Below, piece by piece: positions 31,142 to 62,249 of a stretch of DNA of 64,000 nucleotides. This DNA is from Okeania sp. KiyG1. Lineage in GTDB: Bacteria > Cyanobacteriota > Cyanobacteriia > Cyanobacteriales > Microcoleaceae. The stretch's first letter is position 1; each line of letters opens with the position of its first letter. Both the position numbers and the translations under genes were made by a program. The notes under the pieces were generated by a model. It saw only the letters and a list, made by a program, of their open reading frames with translations. It was not told the DNA's origin and did no database searches. The DNA lies in assembly GCF_014132355.1 (NCBI RefSeq), contig NZ_BLZO01000011.1, forward strand, positions 62,001 through 126,000, in the 5' to 3' direction.

Positions 31142-31783
31142 CTAAGAACAACAGCAAGGAATATATGAATTAGGAGGTGTATAATTACTATTATCTCGGT
31201 TGTTAAGCCAGTTTGATAATTCTTCTTTTGTGAGTGTTGCTTCACTAAATTGTGGGCAAGGTGGAAAGGCAATCATTACTGTCAAAACATTAGGACTATT
31301 TGGAGTAGGATCTTGAATAGACCCATTAGCAATAGTAGCATCAGTTTTAAATACTACTATGCCAGACTCAATGTCATGCTTATTAAAAAGTGGAAAGTTA
31401 TAAAGACCTTTGCTTTCATCCTTAACGTCAGCAAAAACTTTACTCAAAAATTCACCGTATATAGTCTTGTCTTGAGGTTTTGCACCCATTAATTTTGCCA
31501 AAGAAGGCAATTTATCTGTAGAAGTATGGTTTTCTAACTTATCAAAATTTTTTGTAGGGTTTTGAAACCAGTGTCTAGCTTGTTTGGCCAAAGGATCTGA
31601 TTCTGCATATAACCATATATAGGAAATAATTTGAGAAATCATCTTTGTTCGAGTCAGTGCATGTCGCAGAAATGAACCTTGAAATAGTTTGTCAGAGTTT
31701 GAGTTTTCTAACAATTGGTTTTCAGCTAACTCTGAAGACTTTTGCCGATCGCTTACACGCAAATTTTCGGGCGATAATACCAT
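31142..31783 (-). CDS. CC-tailed protein A: candidate large precursor ending YIPCCCS
   Basis: The 213-residue protein ends PPNSYIPCCCS. Residues about 41-58 (HALTRTKMISQIISYIWL) and 166-192 (NVLTVMIAFPPCPQFS ... LTKEELSNWL) have counterparts in the 32236-33273 product, which ends YPYLPMSCCT. Clustered Cys/Ser/Thr at the extreme C-terminus is what azole-forming cyclodehydratases act on, and such an enzyme is coded 3 kb away. The ISQIISYIWL helix also vaguely recalls the AW-containing helix of nitrile-hydratase-like leader peptides. That it is a modified precursor is inference; it could equally be a metal-binding tail. The ATG at 31783 follows TAGGTTG. Confidence 0.6.
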   Translation of the reverse strand: MVLSPENLRVSDRQKSSELAENQLLENSNSDKLFQGSFLRHALTRTKMISQIISYIWLYAESDPLAKQARHWFQNPTKNFDKLENHTSTDKLPSLAKLMGAKPQDKTIYGEFLSKVFADVKDESKGLYNFPLFNKHDIESGIVVFKTDATIANGSIQDPTPNSPNVLTVMIAFPPCPQFSEATLTKEELSNWLNNRDNSNYTPPNSYIPCCCS

Positions 31784-31942
31784 AGTGCAACCTACCTAAT
31801 AGTCTTTTATTAAAGTTGAAAAATCTTTTCTCTAAAAGAGTCTGAAATTTTTAGTTTAATGATACCAGTTCTCCAAAAAAGGAGAAAGGTATTTAGACTA
31901 TATCCTAGCAAATTGAAACCTGCAAATTTTACCTCAAACTCC

Positions 31943-32157
31943 TCAAACTTTATAGAAACATTTAGGATTATCCCAAACAATCTTTTTAACTATCTCCTGA
32001 GATAAGTTTCCCTCAAGTTCAACAACATTTTTCACAATATCTGGCTGACGATAAATATGTGGATAATCTGAGCCAAATGTTAAATTATCAGACCCAATAA
32101 ATTCAATTATCCCAGAAAGATAAGCTTCAGATGGGTCAGCCGCAATATAACATTGAC
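31943..32157 (-). pseudogene. Amidohydrolase-family C-terminal remnant
   Basis: The minus strand reads CQCYIAADPSEAYLSGIIEF then IGSDNLTFGSDYPHIYRQPD and VWDNPKCFYKV before a stop. FGSDYPH is the metal/active-site motif near the C-terminus of amidohydrolase 2 (TIM-barrel, decarboxylase-like) proteins. Only about 70 residues remain and there is no start, so it is a truncated gene. It lies between the two CC-tailed genes on the same strand. Confidence 0.65.
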
Positions 32158-32235
32158 AGTGACAATATTATCGTCAGGCGATCGAGTGAAGTTTACCACT
32201 TTGCTTACTTATGACTCATTTTTTTAAGGCTTAAT

Positions 32236-33273
32236 TTAAGTACAACAACTCATTGGTAAATAAGGATAGGGAGGTAAAACATATTCTATATGAATACCAT
32301 CTTTTGAGTTCCACTTTTTCTTTGCAAATGGGAATTCTGTAGATTTTGGTTTCCGTACTATATCTTGTGAATATGCCCAATTTTTGATAGTATCGGCAGT
32401 TAGTATGGGTTGAAATAGTCCATCGTCATCGCAATCTGCCTTTTCTACTACATTAGGACGTTGAGGATAAGGAATAAACACTCTATAGAAAGGAGGTTGA
32501 TTCTTTCCTACCTGCTGAATGTCTTCCATAGTCCCTACAAAGCTGTTCCAAACGACCTGAATACTGTATAAACAAGACGCTTCATAAGTAGACATAATGG
32601 GACTCTTTAATACTTCTATATATCGATCGCCTTTTTTGTAATAAGCTTGTCCACAAAACAACAAATTCAAACAGATATTTCGCCAACTTTCTTGATTTTT
32701 CTTGATAATCATTTGACGGTCAGATTTAGTTGCTGAAGATTCAGACTTAGTACGATCTGGCGGTCTATTAGCACTCAGAAATAGTTTCCTAATAATCTTT
32801 AATGCTAATACTTTCTCTTCTTTTATTTCAGCCTCTTGGTTACTACTAATTTTTGGGTCTACTAATGATGTCTTTTCATCAATGGTAGCCTCTATTTGAT
32901 CGTCCCTGAGCCATGTCTCAGCAATCAATTGAGATAATTTTCTAGCTGCCAGAAGCCTCCGCAAAGCATGATATTGATTGATGAACATCTTATCATCTAT
33001 GCTTTTTTTCTTAAACTTCATCACTGCCTTCATGTCTAATCCCTCATGGGGAAAATTGTCTATTTTTTCATTTCCTATTCCTGGCAACTTTTCTTTTAAA
33101 TATTTTTTAGTTCCTGTATATACTGTTGTTTTGATTCCGAGATGAGAGTTATCATCTTCTTCCACTAAAAGAATTTGGTATTGAAAATTTTCCCCTGAGA
33201 TAAATTTGGGGATAGAACTTCATATCCAGATAATTTTTGATTATTAGTGCTATCTAAATCGAAAGGCATCATA
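32236..33273 (-). CDS. CC-tailed protein B: candidate large precursor ending YLPMSCCT (one frameshift)
   Basis: From ATG 33273 the frame reads MMPFDLDSTNNQKLSGYEVL and then breaks near 33202-33207. Adding one T gives PNFISGENFQYQILLVEEDD and runs on in the 309-codon ORF to about 345 residues. Shared blocks with protein A: HALRRLLAARKLSQLIAETW, FYRVFIPYPQRP, LTADTIKNW and the tail PPYPYLPMSCCT. The interior is lysine-rich and charged, so most of the protein is probably a folded or helical carrier. A miniature IS605-end element abuts its start. The role as substrate of the nearby cyclodehydratase is inference. Confidence 0.55.
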
Positions 33274-33284
33274 AATCTTACCGA

Positions 33285-33405
33285 ATAATTAAGGTTTAAA
33301 GCCTCTCCTTTAAAGGAGAAACAAGAAAAAACTTTCCTTTTATTCAATCCTCTTCCTTTTAGGGAGAGGTAATTATTAATTATTAATTATTAATTATTAA
33401 TTGTT
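33285..33405. mobile_element. Miniature IS605-end element upstream of a CC-tailed gene
   Basis: About 118 bp: TTAAGGTTTAAAGCCTCTCC...GGAG at one end, CAATCCTCTTCCTTTTAGGGAGAGG at the other, then four ATTAATT units. It is the clearest copy of the family, nearly colinear with the nested copy at 11697-11812. Its left end is about 12 bp from the ATG at 33273. Confidence 0.65.
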
Positions 33406-33576
33406 TAATACCTCCTCAAATTGTTATTTAATCATCTAAAAAGACCAGTCATTTCAGCTATCAGTTATCAAAATAATTGGGTCGTGCAACCTCACCTTTT
33501 AAGGCCAAATATTTTTAGAGGTTTGCTCAAATCACCGTAATAACTTCTGACTTCTGACTTCTGACTTCTGACTTCG

Positions 33577-34350
33577 TTAACCTTTCTGCTGACGACGCAA
33601 ACTAGCCATTGCTAAACTCACAACACCAACAGAAAATAGTGACATAGAAACTGGTTCTGGCACTGTTGCTAATTCATCTGCCAATCCTTCTCCTATAATC
33701 ACATCCCCTAGTTTAACTTGAAATGCTAGTTCCGAACGATGGGGAGCTGGGTTATCTTTATCTTTAAGGTCTCTAGGATCTCCAGTCCAAGTCATAGTTG
33801 TTGTACCCGTCAATGTGAAACTCTCCTCTAGATCGGTTAACCATAAATATTGGGAACTATTCCAATAATCACATCCTTCAGAGCAGGTAAAACTAGAATT
33901 TTCCGCGATCGCCTGACCATTTAGGATTAGATTATCTACCACAACACTATTATCTTGTTTACGAGCTGTTGTGCGGATAAATAAATCGTTTAAAGTATCT
34001 GTAATACTGTATTCCAAAGTTTTTCCACCAATTTCGTAGGTTAGTGTACCGTCATCGAATGTCAGAGTAAAATCTTCTCCTTGTCCGTTTACCCAATCAA
34101 AGGAACGGTACTCAGTGGGAACTATTTGATGGCCATTTTCATTATCGTAATGGATGTTAAATTCATGTTCTGCTGCTCCTGATAGATCCCCAATTCGTCC
34201 CTCTGCAGCAACATCTATTGTTGCACCTAGTTTATTAAAATCTGCTTCGCCATTGATAACACCTCCTAGAGTAAAAGCATTTGCTGAAACTGGCGCTCCC
34301 AAAAATCCGACCGCTGCTGCTAATGCTAGGAATGATGTGTACTTATTCAT
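33577..34350 (-). CDS. PEP-CTERM sorted exported protein
   Basis: The 257-residue protein has a signal peptide (MNKYTSFLALAAAVGFLGAP then VSANAF) and a C-terminal PEP-CTERM tripartite signal: VPEP, the hydrophobic segment MSLFSVGVVSLAMASL and the basic end RRQQKG. Family members are exported, cut and anchored or released by an exosortase, usually in organisms with extracellular polysaccharide. The middle is beta-rich with a single CSEGC pair; no enzymatic domain is apparent. Divergent from the cyclodehydratase. A run of TGACTTC repeats follows its stop. Confidence 0.85.
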   Translation of the reverse strand: MNKYTSFLALAAAVGFLGAPVSANAFTLGGVINGEADFNKLGATIDVAAEGRIGDLSGAAEHEFNIHYDNENGHQIVPTEYRSFDWVNGQGEDFTLTFDDGTLTYEIGGKTLEYSITDTLNDLFIRTTARKQDNSVVVDNLILNGQAIAENSSFTCSEGCDYWNSSQYLWLTDLEESFTLTGTTTMTWTGDPRDLKDKDNPAPHRSELAFQVKLGDVIIGEGLADELATVPEPVSMSLFSVGVVSLAMASLRRQQKG

Positions 34351-34977
34351 CTACTTTGCTCCTTGACCCTCTTGTTTTTCTACAATTCCAATCTAAGCTA
34401 CTAAGAAGCCGATCCGCCACTAAAATAGTAATAATTTACACAATCTTTAAGGTAAGTGAGGAGCTTAAGTATTAATAGGTAAAAGCCATAATTATAAGAT
34501 AATCAGCGTATCTGCAAATATACGTGATACTGAGTAATAATTCAATTCATGTATCAGTATTTACTCGTGATTCTCTGTATAGCAGAAGGAAGAAGGAAGA
34601 GGGAAGAAGGAAGAAGGAAGAAGGAAGAGGGAAGAGGGAAGAAGGAAAAGTATTATTACACAGGACTTACGCAGAGACTCTATATATAGAGAGGGCGAAT
34701 GCCATTACCCCCTACAGATGGTGGTTTGACAGTCAATTTGCGTAAGTCCTGATTACAATTGATAACTGATAACTGAATAACTGAAATGACCCTTGATAGA
34801 ATAAAATTATTTTGGCAAGAAAATTTGACCAAGAAATAAGGTCTCTAGTCTCCCCTTTTAAGGGGATAAAAAAGAAAATTCCAGATTTAAAGTCTCTGAC
34901 TTTCCTAGGTCATGCTGCGCAAACAGTGGTCGGTACTGATAACTGATAACTGTTAACTAATAACTGAAATAATAAAT
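34351..34977. repeat. Divergent promoter region with heptamer repeat and a 91-bp MITE
   Basis: A long (GAAGGAA)n repeat spans about 34582-34648. At 34661-34751 CAGGACTTACGCA and TGCGTAAGTCCTG form 13-bp terminal inverted repeats of a 91-bp element. CTCCCCTTTTAAGGGGA at about 34852 is a lone IS605-type end. Promoters for both flanking genes must lie here, but I cannot pick them out. Confidence 0.6.
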
Positions 34978-37283
34978 ATGCTCAATCAACCTAATTTTAA
35001 TCCCGCTTACTTAGTTGAAACCCTAGAACCAGATACGGTATTTTTCATATCTGAAAGAGAATCTGTCTGTTTACAAGACCCTCTTTATTATCGTTTAGTT
35101 CAGTTAATTGATGGTCAGCGAAATGTTGATGAAATTATCGATATTCTACAATTAGAAATTCTACAAGACCAAGAATTAACACAAGAAAATCCTAATTTTT
35201 TCAAGAGATTCTGAATTTTAGTATTAAAATCCAACAAGCTATATTTCAATTACACAAACAAGGATATCTATTAGAAAACAATGATTTATTACCGTCTAAT
35301 TTAGCTATTCTTTGTCATCATCTCCAGATTCTTCAGTCTCAAGCTAGTCATCAATTACAATCGACTAAAGTTACTGTCAAAACATTAGGTTCGGTAACAG
35401 ATGAAGAATTTATTTCTCTGTTAAAATCTTTTCATATTCAAGTAGCTGAAGACGGAGATTTAACGATTATTCTAACTGACGATTATCTCCATCCTGATTT
35501 AGCTGAATTTAATCAACAAGCTTTAGCCTCTCAAGCTCCTTGGATGTTAATCAAACCATTAGGAACTATTGCTTGGATTGGACCTTTATTCCAACCTAAT
35601 CAAACAGGATGTTGGGATTGTTTTGCCCAACGTTGGCGAGATAATCGACCGATTGAAGAGTTTATTAATAGAAAGAAAGAAGGAGCAAAACTTTTAACTC
35701 CTCCCCTTGGTTTTTCTCAGGCAACAATTCAAACAACTTTAAATATAGCTGCGACAGAAATTTTTAAATGGATTATCCAAAAAGGCAATCCTAGATTAGT
35801 AGGAAATCTGATTACTTATGACCATCTAACTCTACAAACTCAAAACCACATTTTAGTTAAACGTCCTCAATGTCATAGCTGCGGAAATGTATTTAATAAA
35901 CAACCTTTACCTGTAGTTTTAGGACATCGAAAAAAAGCCTTTACTGCTGATGGCGGACATCGTTTTTGTTCTCCCGAAGAAACTTTGAGAAAGTATCAAC
36001 ATCATATTAGTCCGATTACAGGTGTTGTACGAGAATTAGCTAAAATTCCCAGTCAAGGATTACTTCATACTTATGTTGCTAAACATCATTTTCGCAATGT
36101 TTTCAACAATTTAGATAGTTTACGGCAAAATATGGGTGGTAGAAGTGCGGGGAAAGGAAGAACCGATAGTCAAGCAAGAGCAAGCGGTTTTTGTGAGGCG
36201 ATCGAACGTTATTCTGGGGTTTTTCAAGGAGATGAAATTAGGGAGCAAGGGAGTTATGAAAAGTTGGTAGAAAAAGCTATTCATCCAAATCAGTGCATGA
36301 TTTTTAGCGAGGAACAATATCAAAATCGAAAAGAGTGGAATGTTGAGTGTAAAGGGTGGTTTCAAAAAGTACCAGAACCTTTTGATGAAACGAGAATAAT
36401 TGATTGGACTCCTGTATGGTCTTTGACAGCTCAAGAGTTTAAATATTTACCTACTTCTTACTGTTACTATGGTTATCCTGAATCTGATTCTTCTGATTTA
36501 TTAGATTGTTGGTCTGATTCTAATGGTTGTGCTGCGGGAAATACGATAGAGGAGGCAATTTTACAAGGTTTTATGGAGTTGGTAGAAAGAGATTGTGTGG
36601 CTTTATGGTGGTACAATCGGTTGTCAACACCTCAAGTGGATTTAGACAGTTTTGACCAGCCTTATTTTCAGCAGTTAAAACAATATTATCAAAGTCTGAA
36701 TCGGGATTTATGGGTGTTAGATATTACGAGCGATTTGAATATTCCTTGTTTTGCTGCTATTAGTCCTAGAAAGGATAGAGAGGTAGAAGATATTGTATTG
36801 GGATATGGGGCGCATTTTGACCCAGAAATTGCTATTAGTCGAGCGTTGACTGAGGCGAATCAAATATTGCCTAATGTAGTATCTTTTCAGGAGGATGGCA
36901 CAACGAATTATCCCCCTTCTGCTGATGTATTAGCTCTTAAATGGTGGCAAACCGCAACTTTAATTAATCAACCTTATTTGGTTCCTAATAATGAAGTTAT
37001 TGCTAAAAAAAGTAGTGATTATTTTCAATTAGCTAGTGACGACCTATTAGAAGATGTTAAATTGTGTCAGCAAATTGTTGAGAAAAATGATATGGAACTA
37101 TTAGTATTAGACCAGACTCGTAGTGATGTTGGGTTGAGGGTAGCTAAGGTCATTGTTCCAGGAATGCGTCATATGTGGAAGCGATTAGGGTTAGGAAGAT
37201 TATATGATGTTCCGGTTAAAATGGGATGGTTGAAAGAGTCTTTAAAGGAAGAGGAATTAAATCCTTTTCCTATGTGGATGTAA
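34978..37283 (+). CDS. Fused E1-like / YcaO cyclodehydratase (TOMM azole synthase), one frameshift
   Basis: Reading through one break (a missing T at about 35199-35205, PNFF then QEILNF) gives about 768 residues. Order: winged-helix leader-binding region (1-90, LVETLEPDTVFFISERESVC), E1/ThiF-like part with the zinc cysteines CWDC and CHSC (about 212-302), and a complete YcaO domain with FCEAIERYSG, GNTIEEAILQGFMELVERD and TEANQIL, ending NPFPMWM, a variant of the usual PxPxP tail. Such SagC-SagD/PatD fusions use ATP to turn Cys/Ser/Thr of a precursor into azolines. No dehydrogenase, protease or exporter is nearby. The two CC-tailed proteins are the obvious substrate candidates. Confidence 0.85.
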
Positions 37284-38683: not shown

Positions 38684-41182
38684 TTATTCCCAGTCAAACT
38701 GCATTCCTAAATATTCTTCTAACCTCTGATTATGAGGTTGAAAATATTCACTCAACCTCTGGCGCATCTGATTATTTATTGGTGAATAAGATCCAGGGTT
38801 TAACTTTCTATATTCTGACAGTTGATGTTCTGGCATTCCTAAAAATTCAAAAACTTGTTTCATGGTTTCTACAGGTTTCTCATAAAGGTTTTCTCCTTTT
38901 AAAATCAGTAGTTGTTCTCTGGGAAATACTGTTAACCATTTATTGATAAATTCTATATAAATACCACGTCCTATATAGTTACCTGGTTTCTGCCAATAAT
39001 TTTTGTCTCCCTCTGGTTTTTCGGGATTTTTTCTGAGTATTTCTAACTCGGAATTTATGGCTGTTTCAAAGGAGCGGTCTTCCCAATTTAGTCTAATCCA
39101 ATGATGGTATTGAGAAAAGGCTCTATCTATAGGATTTCTCAATATTACTAATAGTTTAACTTCTGGAAATACATTATATATTCGCTCGGCAGCTTGATGA
39201 TTTTCTAGATAGTTAGGGGTTGCTTCTCCGGTGATAAAATTTTCTGATTTAGGAATTGGAGGAAAGTGAGCAAGATACCAATTAATTCCTTTGTTGAAGT
39301 CTCGATACCAAAAATGTGTTTCTTTTTTTATTGCTGGTATTACATGGGGGTTTTGAGCGATGTAATTTTCTAGTGAAGTTGTACCACTTTTTTGAGCGCC
39401 AATAATAATAAAGTTAGGACCTCTGGCATTTTGTAAATTCCAATGTTGTTTAACAAAGGAGGGATTAAGTTGACGGGTTTTGTTGTAGGAGGCGGTTTGA
39501 TAATTTTTGATTGCTGCATCTAGGTTTCCTGTTGCTGTGAGAATTTCTCCGAGGTTAATGTAAGACCAAATACTGTCTTGATTTTCTTGAGTAATTTTTT
39601 GAAATAATTTTAATATTTGCTTGAGTTTTCCTTGTTTAATAATAAAGTTTAATAAGTTTGAATAGAAGAAAAACCAGGGATATTCGGGTTTGAGTTGAAT
39701 GGCGTGTATATAAGTTTTTATGGCTTCATCAAATCTCTGAAGTTTGAAGAATATGTTGCCTAGTTGATAGTGAGAACGGAAATTTTTGGGATTTTTGTTG
39801 ACGGTGTTTTGGCAGTTGGTAAGTTCCTGGTCTCGTTGATTTTTTTTGTTTTCTAGTTGAGTCAGTTTGTTAGTAATTTCTGGATGATTTTGCTGGACTT
39901 GCAAACCCAGGTTATAAATTATTATTGCTGCATTAAATAAATTTTTCTGTCCTAGTAAGTTTCCTAATTTTAAGTAAAATTCTGGTGCTTCTGGCTGAAT
40001 TGATAATTCTTTAATTGTGCTGGATTTTTGTAGTTGAGGGTTTTGAATAATCTGGGAATAATAGTGAATAGTTTCTGGTAAATTTGATTGAGATTGTTGT
40101 TCGAGGGCGTATCCTAATTTTTCATGGATGTTTGACAAATCTTGATTAATTTTAAAGGCATAAAGAAAAGCTGTTACTGCTTCATTCCACCTTTGTAAGT
40201 TGATGAATGTTTCTCCTAAACTGTAGTAAGACCAGAGAAAATTTGGATTTAATTGAATAGCTTGATGGTAAGCAAGGGTAGCTTTATCTAATTCCTCTTT
40301 TTCTTGGAAAATATTTGCTAATTTATGATGAACTACCCAAGTTTCAGGCTGTAATTTTATGGCTTTTTGATAAGCAGTAATTGCTGCATCTAATTTTTTT
40401 TGATTGACTAAAGCATCTCCAAGACAATGATAAGTAACAGCAGCTTCAGGGTTTAGTTGAACTGCTTGTTCATAAGAGGAAATAGCTTTTTCCCACTGCT
40501 GAATATTGGTGAAAGCTTTGCCTAAGCTGTGATGAGACCAGGAAAATTTGGGATTAAGTTGAATAGCTTTTTGGTAGTTTAATATAGCTTCTTGCCAATT
40601 TCCTTCGCCACTATAAATTTCCCCCAAATTATGATGTGCTTGGGATAGATTTGGATTTAACTTAAGCGCTTGTTCGTAACAGGCGATCGCTTCTTTCTTT
40701 TGCTGGTATTTTAATAGAGTTTTTGCCAATTTCAGATATTCTAAATCTTTTGCCAATTCTGGCTTTAAATTCAGTGCTTTATACAAATAAGAGGCAGCTA
40801 ACTCTGGCTTATCTGTTTGAGTAAATATTTGTGCTAAAGCACTATAAGCACTGGCAAAATTTGGTTGTATATTAGTAGCTTTTTCGTAGCAAGTAATAGC
40901 TTGATGCCATTGCTGTTGTTTGACATAAATTTTACCTAAATTTGCATGAATTTCAGCTAAATTTGGTTGTTTTTCTAGAGCTTTTTTATACCAATCAATA
41001 GCTGAGTCTAAGGCATCTATTTTTTCCATAATTTGCCCTATGGTATTACTAGCTGGTGCAAAATCTGGAACTAATTCTAAAGCTTTTAAGCAAGCGTTAT
41101 AAGCCTTTTCAAAATCTCCTTGAATCAGATAATTTTCTGCTTGCTGGTTTAATTTTAATGCTGCTACCTCTGAATTTTCCAT
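38684..41182 (-). CDS. TPR protein with C-terminal sulfotransferase domain
   Basis: The 832-residue protein is the longest of the cluster. The N-terminal 560 residues are some fourteen tetratricopeptide repeats (for example YYQKAIQLNPKFSWSHHSLG-type units). The last 260 are a PAPS-dependent sulfotransferase: the 5'-phosphosulfate loop IIGAQKSGTTSLENYI, the 3'-phosphate motif LLVILRNPIDRAFSQYHHW and the C-terminal signature LEEYLGMQFDWE. Enzymes of this type sulfate carbohydrates; the TPR part probably binds the acceptor or partners. Role in sheath or extracellular polysaccharide sulfation is inference. Intact. Confidence 0.87.
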   Translation of the reverse strand: MENSEVAALKLNQQAENYLIQGDFEKAYNACLKALELVPDFAPASNTIGQIMEKIDALDSAIDWYKKALEKQPNLAEIHANLGKIYVKQQQWHQAITCYEKATNIQPNFASAYSALAQIFTQTDKPELAASYLYKALNLKPELAKDLEYLKLAKTLLKYQQKKEAIACYEQALKLNPNLSQAHHNLGEIYSGEGNWQEAILNYQKAIQLNPKFSWSHHSLGKAFTNIQQWEKAISSYEQAVQLNPEAAVTYHCLGDALVNQKKLDAAITAYQKAIKLQPETWVVHHKLANIFQEKEELDKATLAYHQAIQLNPNFLWSYYSLGETFINLQRWNEAVTAFLYAFKINQDLSNIHEKLGYALEQQSQSNLPETIHYYSQIIQNPQLQKSSTIKELSIQPEAPEFYLKLGNLLGQKNLFNAAIIIYNLGLQVQQNHPEITNKLTQLENKKNQRDQELTNCQNTVNKNPKNFRSHYQLGNIFFKLQRFDEAIKTYIHAIQLKPEYPWFFFYSNLLNFIIKQGKLKQILKLFQKITQENQDSIWSYINLGEILTATGNLDAAIKNYQTASYNKTRQLNPSFVKQHWNLQNARGPNFIIIGAQKSGTTSLENYIAQNPHVIPAIKKETHFWYRDFNKGINWYLAHFPPIPKSENFITGEATPNYLENHQAAERIYNVFPEVKLLVILRNPIDRAFSQYHHWIRLNWEDRSFETAINSELEILRKNPEKPEGDKNYWQKPGNYIGRGIYIEFINKWLTVFPREQLLILKGENLYEKPVETMKQVFEFLGMPEHQLSEYRKLNPGSYSPINNQMRQRLSEYFQPHNQRLEEYLGMQFDWE

Positions 41183-42477: not shown

Positions 42478-43403
42478 ATTAGGGTTTGCTGATTAAATAT
42501 TAAAGCATTGACTGATATTAGTTTGAGGTTTTTTATGTCTTGAAAAAGTATTAGCTTTTCAGTTGCTCAGATTCAAAAAGTGAGGATTTTCGGGTAGCTA
42601 TGACAGAAAAATCACTCTTACTATTCTTTTGGCTACTGACTCTATAATTCCCATTTATTCTATCTCCTAACTACTCCCTACTCCCTACAAAGAGCAAAAA
42701 GACTTTCCATACACAAACCCTAAATATTAAAGCATTGACTGATATTAGTTTGAGGCTTTTTATGTCTTGAAAAAGTATTAGATTTTGAGTTGTTCAGATT
42801 CAAAAAGTAAGGATTTTCGGGTAGCTATGACAGAAAAATCACTCTTACTATTCTTTTGGCTACTGACTCTATAATTCCCATTTATTCTATCTCCTAACTA
42901 CTCCCTACTCCCTACAAAGAGCAAAAAGACTTTCCATACACAAACCCTAAATATTAAAGCATTGACTGATATTAGTTTGAGGCTTTTTATGTCTTGAAAA
43001 AGTATTAGATTTTGAGTTGTTCAGATTCAAAAAGTAAGGATTTTCGGGTAGCTATGACAGAAAAATCACTCTTACTATTCTTTTGGCTACTGACTCTATA
43101 ATTCCCATTTATTCTATCTCCTAACTACTCCCTACTCCCTACAAAGAGCAAAAAGACTTTCTTCAGCAAAGCCTAAATATTAAAGCATTGACTGATATTA
43201 GTTTGAGGCTTTTTATGTCTTGAAAAAGTATTAGCTTTTGAGTTGTTCAGATTCAAAAAGTAAGGATTTTCGGGTAGCTATGACAGAAAAATCACTCTTA
43301 CTATTCTTTTGGCTACTGACTCTATAATTCCCATTTATTCTATCTCCTAACTACTCCCTACTCCCTACAAAGAGCAAAAAGACTTTCTTCAGCAAAGCCT
43401 AAT
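42478..43403. repeat. Four tandem copies of a 227-bp MITE-derived unit
   Basis: The array opens with TTAGGGTTTGCTGATTAAAT. Units begin TAAATATTAAAGCATTGACT at about 42494, 42721, 42948 and 43174 and close with CAAACCCTAAAT, or CAGCAAAGCCTAA for the last two. Units are nearly identical along their length (GATTTTCGGGTAGCTATGAC, ATTCTTTTGGCTACTGACTC). This is the TTAGGGTTTGCTGA family amplified head to tail. No coding potential. Confidence 0.85.
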
Positions 43404-49344: not shown

Positions 49345-51480
49345 TTGGTATTAATTTCAGTTAAGTTTCATTCCTAAATATTCTTCTAGTCTTTGATTAT
49401 GAATTTAGAAATAATCATTTAAAGTTCTAGGGATTGATAAATCAATAAATGTTGGAAATAATCTCATAACCTGATTGTAGTCCACCCAAATTTCAATCTA
49501 TCTTTTTGTAAGCATTTCCTGCGGAATGCTGCGCAAACAGGTGTCAGTTATCAACCATCAGCTATTAACTTAATTGCCCTTTTTTGAGGAATCAGAGTTG
49601 AAAGATTTAATAGAATTAAAAGTCTGAAATAAATTAGCTACTTGCTCACGACTCAATATTACTCAAATCCTTAAACTACTAATTCCTGTTAACGTAGTTC
49701 CTCCGGAGGAGGAAAGCTCACCGCTAATTGCTGTTTGCGCAGCATTCCGGAGGAAATGCTTACCTCTTTTTTTGGAAAAAAATCAAAAAAATCGGGTCTC
49801 CATGCTGAATTTTTAAAGGAATAAAAAATCAAACTCAGGATTTTATTGCCTCCCTATTCCACGAAGTACTGATAACTGAATTTGTTCCTAATTCCAGTTA
49901 AACTTCATTCCTAAATACTCTTCTAGTCTGTGGTTATGAATTTAGAAATAATCATTTAAAGTTCTAGGGATTTATTCATCAATAAATGTTGGAAATAATC
50001 TCATAACCTGATTGTAGTCCACCCAAATTTCAATCTATTTTTTTGGAAAAAATCAAAAAATCGGGTCTCCATGCTGAATTTTTAAAGGAATAAAAAATCA
50101 AACTCAGGATTTTCTTGCCTCCCTATTCCACGAAGTACTGATAACTGAATTTGTTCCTAATTCCAGTTAAACTTCATTCCTAAATACTCTTCTAGTCTGT
50201 GGTTATGAATTTGGAAATAATCATTTAAAGTTCTAGGGATTGATAAATCAATAAATGTTGGAAATAATCTCATAACCTGATTGTAGTCCACCCAAATTTC
50301 AATCTATCTTTTTGTAAGCATTTCCTGCGGAATGCTGCGCAAACAGGTGTCAGTTATCAACCATCAGCTATTAACTTAATTGCCCTTTTTTGAGGAATCA
50401 GAGTTGAAAGATTTAATAGAATTAAAAGTCTGAAATAAATTAGCTACTTGCTCACGACTCAATATTACTCAAATCCTTAAACTACTAATTCCTGTTAACG
50501 TAGTTCCTCCGGAGGAGGAAAGCTCACCGCTAATTGCTTAATGCTTACCTCTTTTTTTGGAAAAAAGTCAAAAAAATCGGGTCTCCATGCTGAATTTTTA
50601 AAGGAATAAAAAATCAAACTCAGGATTTTATTGCCTCCCTATTCCACGAAGTACTGATAACTGAATTTGTTCCTAATTCCAGTTAAACTTCATTCCTAAA
50701 TACTCTTCTAGTCTGTGGTTATGAATTTAGAAATAATCATTTAAACTCCTACGGATTTATTCATCAATAAATGTTGGAAATAATCTCATAACCTGATTGT
50801 AGTCCACCCAAATTTCAATCTATTTTTTTTGGAAAAAAGTCAAAAAAATCGGGTCTCCATGCTGAATTTTTAAAGGAATAAAAAATCAAACTCAGGATTT
50901 TCTTGCCTCCCTATTCCACGAAGTACTGATAACTGAATTTGTTCCTAATTCCAGTTAAACTTCATTCCTAAATACTCTTCTAGTCTGTGGTTATGAATTT
51001 GGAAATAATCATTTAAATTCCTACGGATTTATTCATCAATAAATGTTGGAAATAATCTCATAACCTGATTGTAGTCCACCCAAATTTCAATCTATTTTTT
51101 TTGGAAAAAAGTCAAAAAAATCGGGTCTCCATGCTGAATTTTTAAAGGAATAAAAAATCAAATTCAGGATTTTCTTGCCTCCCTATTGCAAGAGGTACTA
51201 ATAACTGTTGACTGATGACTGATAACTAAATTTACTCTTAATTCCAGTTAAATTTCATTCCTAAATACTCTTCTAGTCTGTGGTTATGAATTGGGAAATA
51301 ATCATTTAAACTCCTACGGATTGATCGATCAATAAATATTTGAAATAATCTCATAACCTGATTGTAGTCCACCCAGATTTTAATCTCTATTTTTTTGACA
51401 AAAATTTCGGATATCAAGCCTTCCTTTTTGAGGGAATAAAAAATCAAATTCAGTATTTTATTGCCTACCTATTCCAGGAA
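49345..51480 (-). repeat. Tandem array of six decayed 3' ends of a TPR-sulfotransferase gene
   Basis: Blocks that would code the tail RRSLNDYFQIHNHRLEEYLG plus MKFNWN start (stop side) near 49357, 49893, 50164, 50683, 50954 and 51245. Each is followed by a conserved block with CAAAAAAATCGGGTCTCCATG. The basic period is about 271 bp. The copies at 49357 and 50164 carry an extra block of about 250 bp that starts with the dispersed palindrome. Most have TAA in place of the CAA codon in DYFQIH, or a stop in FIDE-stop-IRR. The intact parent is the next gene, 51734-53605. Confidence 0.85.
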
Positions 51481-51733
51481 TTACTGATAACTTTTAACGT
51501 AAACATTCAGTTATTAGCTGTCAGCTCTCAGCAATAAAACTCTGCTCTTAAAACTATACTCTATAAACACCTTTTTTAAGATAAAACTTGACCAAAAAGA
51601 GAAGTTAGAAGTTATGTATTTGCTATTAAATCAATTTTTGCCCTCTTCCTTCTTCCTTAGCTGATAGCTGACCGCTGTTTGCGCAGCATGACCTAGGAAA
51701 TGCTTACCTATTAACTGATAACTGAATTTACTC
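51481..51733. repeat. Short intergenic region with palindrome
   Basis: It contains GCGCAGCATGACCTAGGAAA, a variant of the dispersed palindrome, at about 51682, and CTTCCTTCTTCC repeats. No gene seen. Confidence 0.5.
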
Positions 51734-61982: not shown

Positions 61983-62249
61983 ATGAGTTATAAAGGTTTA
62001 CCAGAAACTACTGCTTATGTCAGAGTAACTCGTCAGTCTTGGCAAAAAGGCACTATCGAAGGAGAAGTAAGTGCTGGGTCATTTAATTGGCATTTTAAAT
62101 GGGGTTTTCGCCATAAAAAAACCCTTTACATTCAACCTTCTCAAGGACGTGCTTTAATTCAAGAACCTTTAGGTAGGTTTCTAGAAAAATGGGATTATCA
62201 ACTAGAAGCTGGTGGAGATTACTATTTTACAATTAAAGCAAAATTTTAG
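61983..62249 (+). CDS. Small conserved cyanobacterial protein, DUF3146-like
   Basis: 88 residues from ATG 61983 (MSYKGLPETTAYVRVTRQSW). The sequence is beta-rich with EGEVSAGSFNWHFKWGFRHK and ends GGDYYFTIKAKF. I believe it belongs to the cyanobacteria-specific DUF3146 family, from memory of the pattern only. An in-frame ATG three codons earlier (61974) is less good, since AGAGG, from the end of the adjacent transposon remnant, is well spaced for 61983. Function unknown. Confidence 0.65.
   Translation: MSYKGLPETTAYVRVTRQSWQKGTIEGEVSAGSFNWHFKWGFRHKKTLYIQPSQGRALIQEPLGRFLEKWDYQLEAGGDYYFTIKAKF

Follow-up and report, generated by a model that had tools for sequence, protein, structure and literature searches.

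A YcaO enzyme and putative protein-sized precursors with Cys/Ser/Thr tails at a damaged locus of Okeania sp. KiyG1

Introduction

The window analysed in this study is a stretch of 64,000 nucleotides of the cyanobacterium Okeania sp. KiyG1 (GCF_014132355.1, contig NZ_BLZO01000011.1, forward-strand positions 62,001 to 126,000). It carries the gene of a fused E1-like/YcaO enzyme and, on the opposite strand, genes for two proteins, A and B, which end in YIPCCCS and YLPMSCCT. In the textbook picture, ribosomally synthesised and post-translationally modified peptides (RiPPs) are made on short disordered leaders. The locus raises the question of whether proteins of this size are substrates of the YcaO enzyme, as the first-pass annotation of this DNA had proposed, and what would become of their tails. 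We consider it probable (about 0.75) that the adjacent enzyme acts on A and B, that a C-terminal core is cyclised and kept as azolines, and that the tail is retained or processed by an amidohydrolase. Homology, conservation, gene neighbourhood and co-occurrence are what the sequences show; the ring formation, the fate of the tail and the roles of the amidohydrolase and of a kinase we infer. Systems that pair a YcaO enzyme with protein-sized, precursor-like proteins bearing a Cys/Ser/Thr tail are widespread in cyanobacteria; the one in the window is damaged. Beyond the earlier reading, the precursor family is placed nearest to the NHLP-Burk group, and two further conserved partners, an amidohydrolase and a Ser/Thr kinase, are recognised.

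Results and discussion

The genes of the two proteins and of the enzyme, with the proposed cores, are as follows.

31142 to 31783, minus strand: protein A, 213 amino acids (aa), of an NHLP-related, precursor-like family; tail YIP-CCCS
31145 to 31156, minus strand: proposed core of protein A, CCCS, from the sequence and the tail statistics of the family
32236 to 33165, minus strand: protein B, the other precursor-like protein; a GTG start gives 309 aa, ending YLPMSCCT
32239 to 32253, minus strand: proposed core of protein B, MSCCT, from the sequence; varies among 92–96% identical relatives
33166 to 33272, minus strand: N-terminal stretch of protein B in another frame, from an ATG near 33272
34978 to 35214, plus strand: N-terminal part of the YcaO enzyme, 78 aa, winged-helix, weakly PqqD-like, split off by a frameshift
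35196 to 37283 (open frame), plus strand: E1-like and YcaO part of the fused enzyme (TIGR03882, TIGR03604, PF02624)
about 35544 to 36029, plus strand: E1-like domain
about 36150 to 37271, plus strand: YcaO domain

The sequence bore out the two opposite-strand genes and their tails. Of the sizes first given, 213 aa was right for protein A; the 345 aa given for protein B is the length of the intact orthologue in an Okeania relative (L057; L, G and C numbers denote our loci, genomes and contigs), while B as encoded has 309 aa, its N-terminal part being cut off by a one-base frameshift. For neither protein did Pfam or NCBIfam give a usable match. Iterated searches placed both in a single family, the members of which range from about 110 to about 400 aa, the longest frames reaching 420 aa. 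Matches to protein A turned up in 17 of the 195 genomes of the order, although that in G072 is judged to be chance, and matches to protein B in 8; both counts include the own genome.

The tails of this family were compared in 95 of its 108 open reading frames (ORFs): two had been set aside before counting, and 11 repeated the last 60 residues of another. Ser, Thr or Cys was the last residue in 85 of the 95 and filled two or more of the final four positions in 84; of 946 other mechanical ORFs with at least 150 codons at the same loci, 9.7% had two or more there. Pro was the commonest residue at position -5 (64/95). When four truncated fragments were also removed, the 91 remaining members had 64 distinct cores. 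Of these members 84 ended in Ser, Thr or Cys; the seven others (VSF, VTF, LSCL, CSSF, ACTV, LTF, LATF) each have such a residue before the end. In three cores (IAVC, IAHS, IAGS) the last residue is the sole cyclisable position. Some tails are rich in Cys (CCCS, PTCC, PTCTC), as would suit a role in binding metal, forming disulfides or taking up acyl groups, with the YcaO gene no more than a neighbour. This explanation is very improbable, because Cys-free tails such as LSSS, FTT, VSGS and LATT are numerous, and because the family co-occurs almost completely with the YcaO clade in the sampled genomes.

Of the 386 genomes sampled from the phylum, 20 gave precursors, 21 the YcaO clade and 19 both (Fisher p 6e-29, with phylogeny uncorrected and the clade limit set by us); the twentieth genome with homologues has a truncated copy only. 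The clade was drawn at about 1000 bits and upwards and also takes in two copies that are split or broken (G471, G512); it covers 21 of the 30 genomes listed with a YcaO hit. The other nine, at 600–930 bits, had no precursor hit, so that counting all 30 gives 11 with YcaO and no precursor. Precursor counts per genome are lower bounds, the first six candidates per genome having been scored. Individual genomes include one with a short precursor ending VPGTC (G042), one with a 129-aa ORF whose Cys-rich end is ACCCCCPCCTCT (G503; a weak match, E 0.003), one with a truncated precursor (G435) and one with stops in both the YcaO and the precursor gene (G512). The amidohydrolase clade, delimited at 528 bits or more, is in 19 of the 20 genomes with a match, G406 (298 bits) being excluded; 17 of these have the YcaO clade and the remaining two a weaker YcaO hit.

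A YcaO alignment scan of the species-genome collection gave 424 relatives, and the counts per locus below refer to the best 80 of them, which include Okeania, Microcystis, Nostoc, Calothrix and Moorena as well as Candidatus Parabeggiatoa. Precursors were recognised in 59 of the 80 loci, and the neighbours of the enzyme are mostly of this one family and not a different short precursor. At least 6 of the 21 loci without one (L062, L064, L065, L067, L119, L129) end about 1 kb or less downstream of the YcaO gene, and L115 holds a divergent candidate ending YIPVYTS. Conversely, 16 of 24 fetched precursor regions contain the YcaO gene, one of these interrupted by a contig end, and in G004 the gene lies just beyond the stretch fetched. 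Taken together, the proposal that these large, Cys/Ser/Thr-tailed proteins are YcaO substrates is supported: in the sampled genomes the homologues do not occur widely apart from the enzyme, and the Cys/Ser/Thr character of their tails is conserved.

Contigs labelled Candidatus Parabeggiatoa (L127, L133) also carry the system; their precursors are short and end in LPNCC and VPVCSC, which suggests a transfer beyond cyanobacteria.

The family consists of divergent relatives of the nitrile-hydratase-like leader (NHLP) precursors, nearest among described systems to NHLP-Burk of Burkholderia. Three of ten short members scanned matched TIGR03793 (NHLP), the best with 46.8 bits (L133) against a cut-off of 50.9; the best score with TIGR03795 (NHLP-Burk precursor) was 25.1 bits, again L133, against a cut-off of 41. 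Proteins A and B gave no hit with TIGR03793 at E up to 1. An L(X)4L-like motif and a Trp that is almost invariant recur in the leaders, and in protein A the sequence has L184-x4-L189, W192 and a PPCP stretch; its AlphaFold model has a pLDDT of 84.1 and a pTM of 0.81. We also observed a Nostoc sp. MS1 precursor of 297 aa with two leader-like segments, RLSQLIAQSWL and RLSQLIAKSWL (L188, 4577–5470).

The leaders vary less than the cores. Among the 83 of 95 ORFs whose tail fits [YWFHL][ILVF]P, 19 pairs have leaders at least 75% identical, and the core differs in 14 of them; ten of the 14 come from one Okeania group of B proteins (n = 5, 92–96% identical), with the cores MSCCT, MSCLC, MSCC, MSCAS and PTCTC. 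At the level of sequence this is the pattern of a RiPP precursor, in which the leader is conserved and the tail varies within a fixed composition. It is also what an ordinary RiPP pathway would give, in which an unlinked or general protease cleaves off the modified tail of 2–6 residues and a very small azole peptide is exported. Several precursors are present in some genomes (the own genome gave five matches), which recalls combinatorial RiPP families, and according to Haft 2010 (PMC2887384) the export of NHLP relatives should come with their cleavage. ABC-type ATPase ORFs are present in 6 of the 80 loci. We nevertheless regard this pathway as a possible but doubtful explanation. Among the 127 of 161 neighbouring ORFs that were scanned, from a set limited beforehand to ORFs of at most 900 aa, no exporter, dehydrogenase or protease family (C39 and other peptidases included) matched more than three. 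Gly-Gly was seen within 45 residues of the C-terminus in 13 of 91 members, at no consistent position.

The first annotation had seen no dehydrogenase, protease or exporter in the window. Across the relatives tested this largely held, these functions being not widely shared, but it was not without exception: besides the ABC-type ATPase ORFs, a SagB gene is present in the cluster of Gloeothece verrucosa PCC 7822.

The neighbour scan listed 25 families. The clustered conserved neighbours were a protein of about 370 aa (PF04909 in the member scanned) and a Ser/Thr kinase-AAA-GAF protein of about 1900 aa. The former, an amidohydrolase, was recognised in 57 of the 80 loci; the mean identity per alignment column is 69% in 28 members. 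Its invariant residues D16, H18, H202 and D325 are candidate metal ligands. It is closest to PtmU3, a CoA thioesterase, followed among named enzymes by DitZ and decarboxylases of the ACMSD type. Kinases were found in 54 of the 80 loci, directly downstream of the YcaO gene in 41 of the 46 with room for one. Large Ser/Thr kinases of similar build are common in cyanobacteria. The one kinase of these loci that was scanned (L053) scored 131.7 bits with TIGR03903 (TOMM_kin_cyc), below the cut-off of 705.75. A radical SAM protein and a protein of about 550 aa with a CxxCH motif are confined to subsets of loci. The latter type was also observed at L187 (17114–18541), L045 (10820–12499) and in relatives as a protein of about 480–560 aa with a hydrophobic N-terminus, accompanying part of the precursor loci; the one scanned, from L045, has no Pfam match.

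The window enzyme scored above the cut-offs with the E1-like model TIGR03882 (174.2 bits, cut-off 36.9) and the SagD-type YcaO model TIGR03604 (278.9 bits, cut-off 219.25), and its relatives reach about 1000 bits or more with a profile of their own clade. On these hidden Markov models alone it is assigned, provisionally, to the azoline-forming cyclodehydratases of the thiazole/oxazole-modified microcins (TOMMs).

We propose the following mechanism. The folded leader would dock on the YcaO enzyme through its L(X)4L-like motif and the Trp, and the enzyme would cyclodehydrate one or more Cys, Ser or Thr in a C-terminal core of 2–5 residues, preceded in most members by Y-[IL]-P. Because dehydrogenase, protease and exporter are not widely shared, the rings probably remain azolines in most species, and the tail would not be exported. 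It probably stays attached, or the PF04909-type amidohydrolase may process the azoline end by decarboxylation or trimming, a step for which PurAH of the bottromycin pathway is a precedent. The downstream kinase-ATPase would be a likely regulator or reader of the product.

Several observations weigh against this mechanism. Two loci (L102, L110) carry, just upstream of the YcaO gene, an ORF of 203–205 aa with a Pro-rich stretch and the tails IMPPVT and FLIGS, and several YcaO loci with long flanks (e.g. L061, L066, L105) have no precursor candidate at all. The enzyme ends in PxPxW and not PxPxP, Trp replacing the third Pro in 16 of 16 aligned members. A C-terminal PxPxP is associated with azoline formers, though not universally, and because this end is altered, azoline chemistry is something that we only infer. 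Simple cyclisation of an end residue also departs from the daptides, in which direct YcaO action on the C-terminal residue was first seen, and there after decarboxylation, according to PMC12338566. Because the daptide residue is modified after decarboxylation, the decarboxylase-related partner found here is, by analogy, suggestive.

The altered end would also agree with a YcaO enzyme that, like MusD, acts on the C-terminal amide by ATP-driven hydrolysis or otherwise (trimming, thioamide, amidine) and makes no azolines. MusD is the closest solved structure by profile and is reported to remove C-terminal residues (PMC10885120). We consider such action improbable, since the tails are biased specifically to Cys, Ser and Thr, which neither hydrolysis nor thioamidation needs, and TfuA is absent from the 25 neighbour families listed.

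If azolines are formed and stay on the protein, the cyclisation of the C-terminal residue by the YcaO enzyme may be followed by removal or masking of the carboxylate by the amidohydrolase, and the kinase-ATPase may read the permanently heterocyclised tail as part of an intracellular signalling or conflict module, not an exported antibiotic. The ACMSD/PtmU3-like amidohydrolase would fit as a helper, and the cores IAVC, IAHS and IAGS leave only the C-terminal residue for a ring; we offer this extension as speculative and rather unlikely.

Compared with known systems, these loci resemble NHLP-Burk, yet fall below its curated models and have larger proteins and an added amidohydrolase. According to Haft, Basu and Mitchell (2010, PMC2887384), one precursor of each NHLP-Burk pair has a C-terminal Cys or Cys-Cys, the precursors have no cleavage motif, and a large Ser/Thr kinase lies nearby. 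Shared with NHLP-Burk (TIGR03795/TIGR03903) are thus an NHLP-like precursor lacking Gly-Gly, a Pro-Xaa-Xaa-Pro stretch, a C-terminal Cys, a fused cyclodehydratase and the kinase. The present system differs in being mostly cyanobacterial, in precursor frames of up to 420 aa against an NHLP-Burk leader of 108 residues, and in its conserved amidohydrolase, and the proteins tested are under the TIGR03795 and TIGR03903 cut-offs. The word "amidohydrolase" does not occur in Haft 2010 or in the TOMM survey of 2015.

With the NHLP/proteusin azole peptides (TIGR03793; MprE-MprC, nostatin A) the family shares the L(X)4L motif and a YcaO cyclodehydratase, and probably a folded nitrile-hydratase-like leader (PMC12455567, PMC11583998). 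Unlike them, it has no consistent Gly-Gly, places its core at the extreme C-terminus behind an expanded leader, and its cyanobacterial loci have no widely shared oxidase or exporter. The fused E1-like/YcaO architecture is that of MusD and the cyanobactin heterocyclases LynD and TruD, which were the top PDB matches of a profile of 16 relatives (902, 851 and 835 bits, respectively); their precursors are unrelated, and PatA/PatG-type subtilisin proteases are not among the neighbour families listed, no such family matching more than three of the 127 ORFs scanned. Bottromycin PurAH/BotAH likewise is an amidohydrolase of a YcaO pathway, acting beside a thiazoline (PMC10885120), whereas the protein found here is of the PF04909 type (one member assigned), nearest to PtmU3 and ACMSD-type decarboxylases. 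We found no description of a cyanobacterial cluster of YcaO and large precursors in the open-access literature that we searched.

This single family, extending from NHLP-like precursors of about 110 aa to proteins of about 400 aa with a core of 2–5 residues, offers an extreme test of leader recognition between two proteins. In chemical terms, it asks if ring closure by a YcaO enzyme is possible at the terminal residue of a protein, and what a co-conserved amidohydrolase would do there; it also forms a second lineage tying an NHLP-related TOMM to a large Ser/Thr kinase. Both questions are testable, because clusters of this kind lie on plasmids of named, sequenced strains. Calothrix sp. PCC 6303 has on pCAL6303.01 a precursor with the tail LIPFTT (CAL6303_RS27790) and its YcaO gene (RS27775); on pNSMS101 of Nostoc sp. 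MS1, a precursor with the tail WIPYTC (RS30860) is accompanied by the YcaO gene (RS30865) and, beside the latter, the amidohydrolase gene (RS30870).

The window copy itself is damaged. The enzyme had been annotated as complete, which was not borne out: the 78-aa N-terminal piece (PF21084, 4.8e-8; TIGR03859, 0.004) and the E1-YcaO frame lie in different reading frames, separated by a one-base frameshift. All six Okeania relatives compared (L057, L058, L059, L060, L066, L105), 88–95% identical in DNA over this region, have one extra base and an uninterrupted YcaO frame of 771–793 aa. Upstream of 33165 the window likewise lacks one base which four aligned B copies keep (L057, L058, L059 and probably L048, the coordinates of the fourth fitting the own-genome copy on contig C92). 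The first-pass annotation had also overlooked a broken amidohydrolase gene, which tblastn and hmmsearch recovered in two remnants.

31946 to 32167, minus strand: amidohydrolase remnant, about residues 295–368 of relatives of about 370 aa
30906 to 30989, minus strand: second amidohydrolase remnant, about residues 270–297

Because the YcaO and B genes are frameshifted and the amidohydrolase is in fragments, the window copy is judged to be decaying or to carry assembly errors. If the frameshifts are real, nothing may be made in this strain, which is compatible with the other explanations and to which we give nearly an even chance; the frameshifted copy is the only YcaO match of the genome at E 1e-5 or better. 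On the other hand, single-base gaps may be assembly errors, and the same genome has uninterrupted precursors on C92 and C180 and uninterrupted amidohydrolase genes on C41 and C12, the one on C41 adjoining a kinase end. At L048 (G000:C92, 1332–3046), too, amidohydrolase fragments lie beside precursor copies, which gives the impression that units of amidohydrolase and precursor were duplicated and then eroded.

Minor observations

Between protein B and the YcaO gene, 33577–34350 (minus strand) encodes a protein that matches Choice-of-anchor W (NF041928) at 180 bits and whose end weakly resembles PEP-CTERM; it gave no sign of belonging to the YcaO/precursor system. Adjoining the YcaO gene, 38684–41182 (minus strand) encodes a TPR-sulfotransferase-type protein; its relatives near YcaO in Okeania (L057–L060, L066, L105) mark it as a genus-level neighbour only. 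Tandem arrays with units of about 227, 269 and 272 bases lie at 42494–43387, 49767–50314 and 50552–51492, and many heptanucleotide repeats were seen throughout the window.

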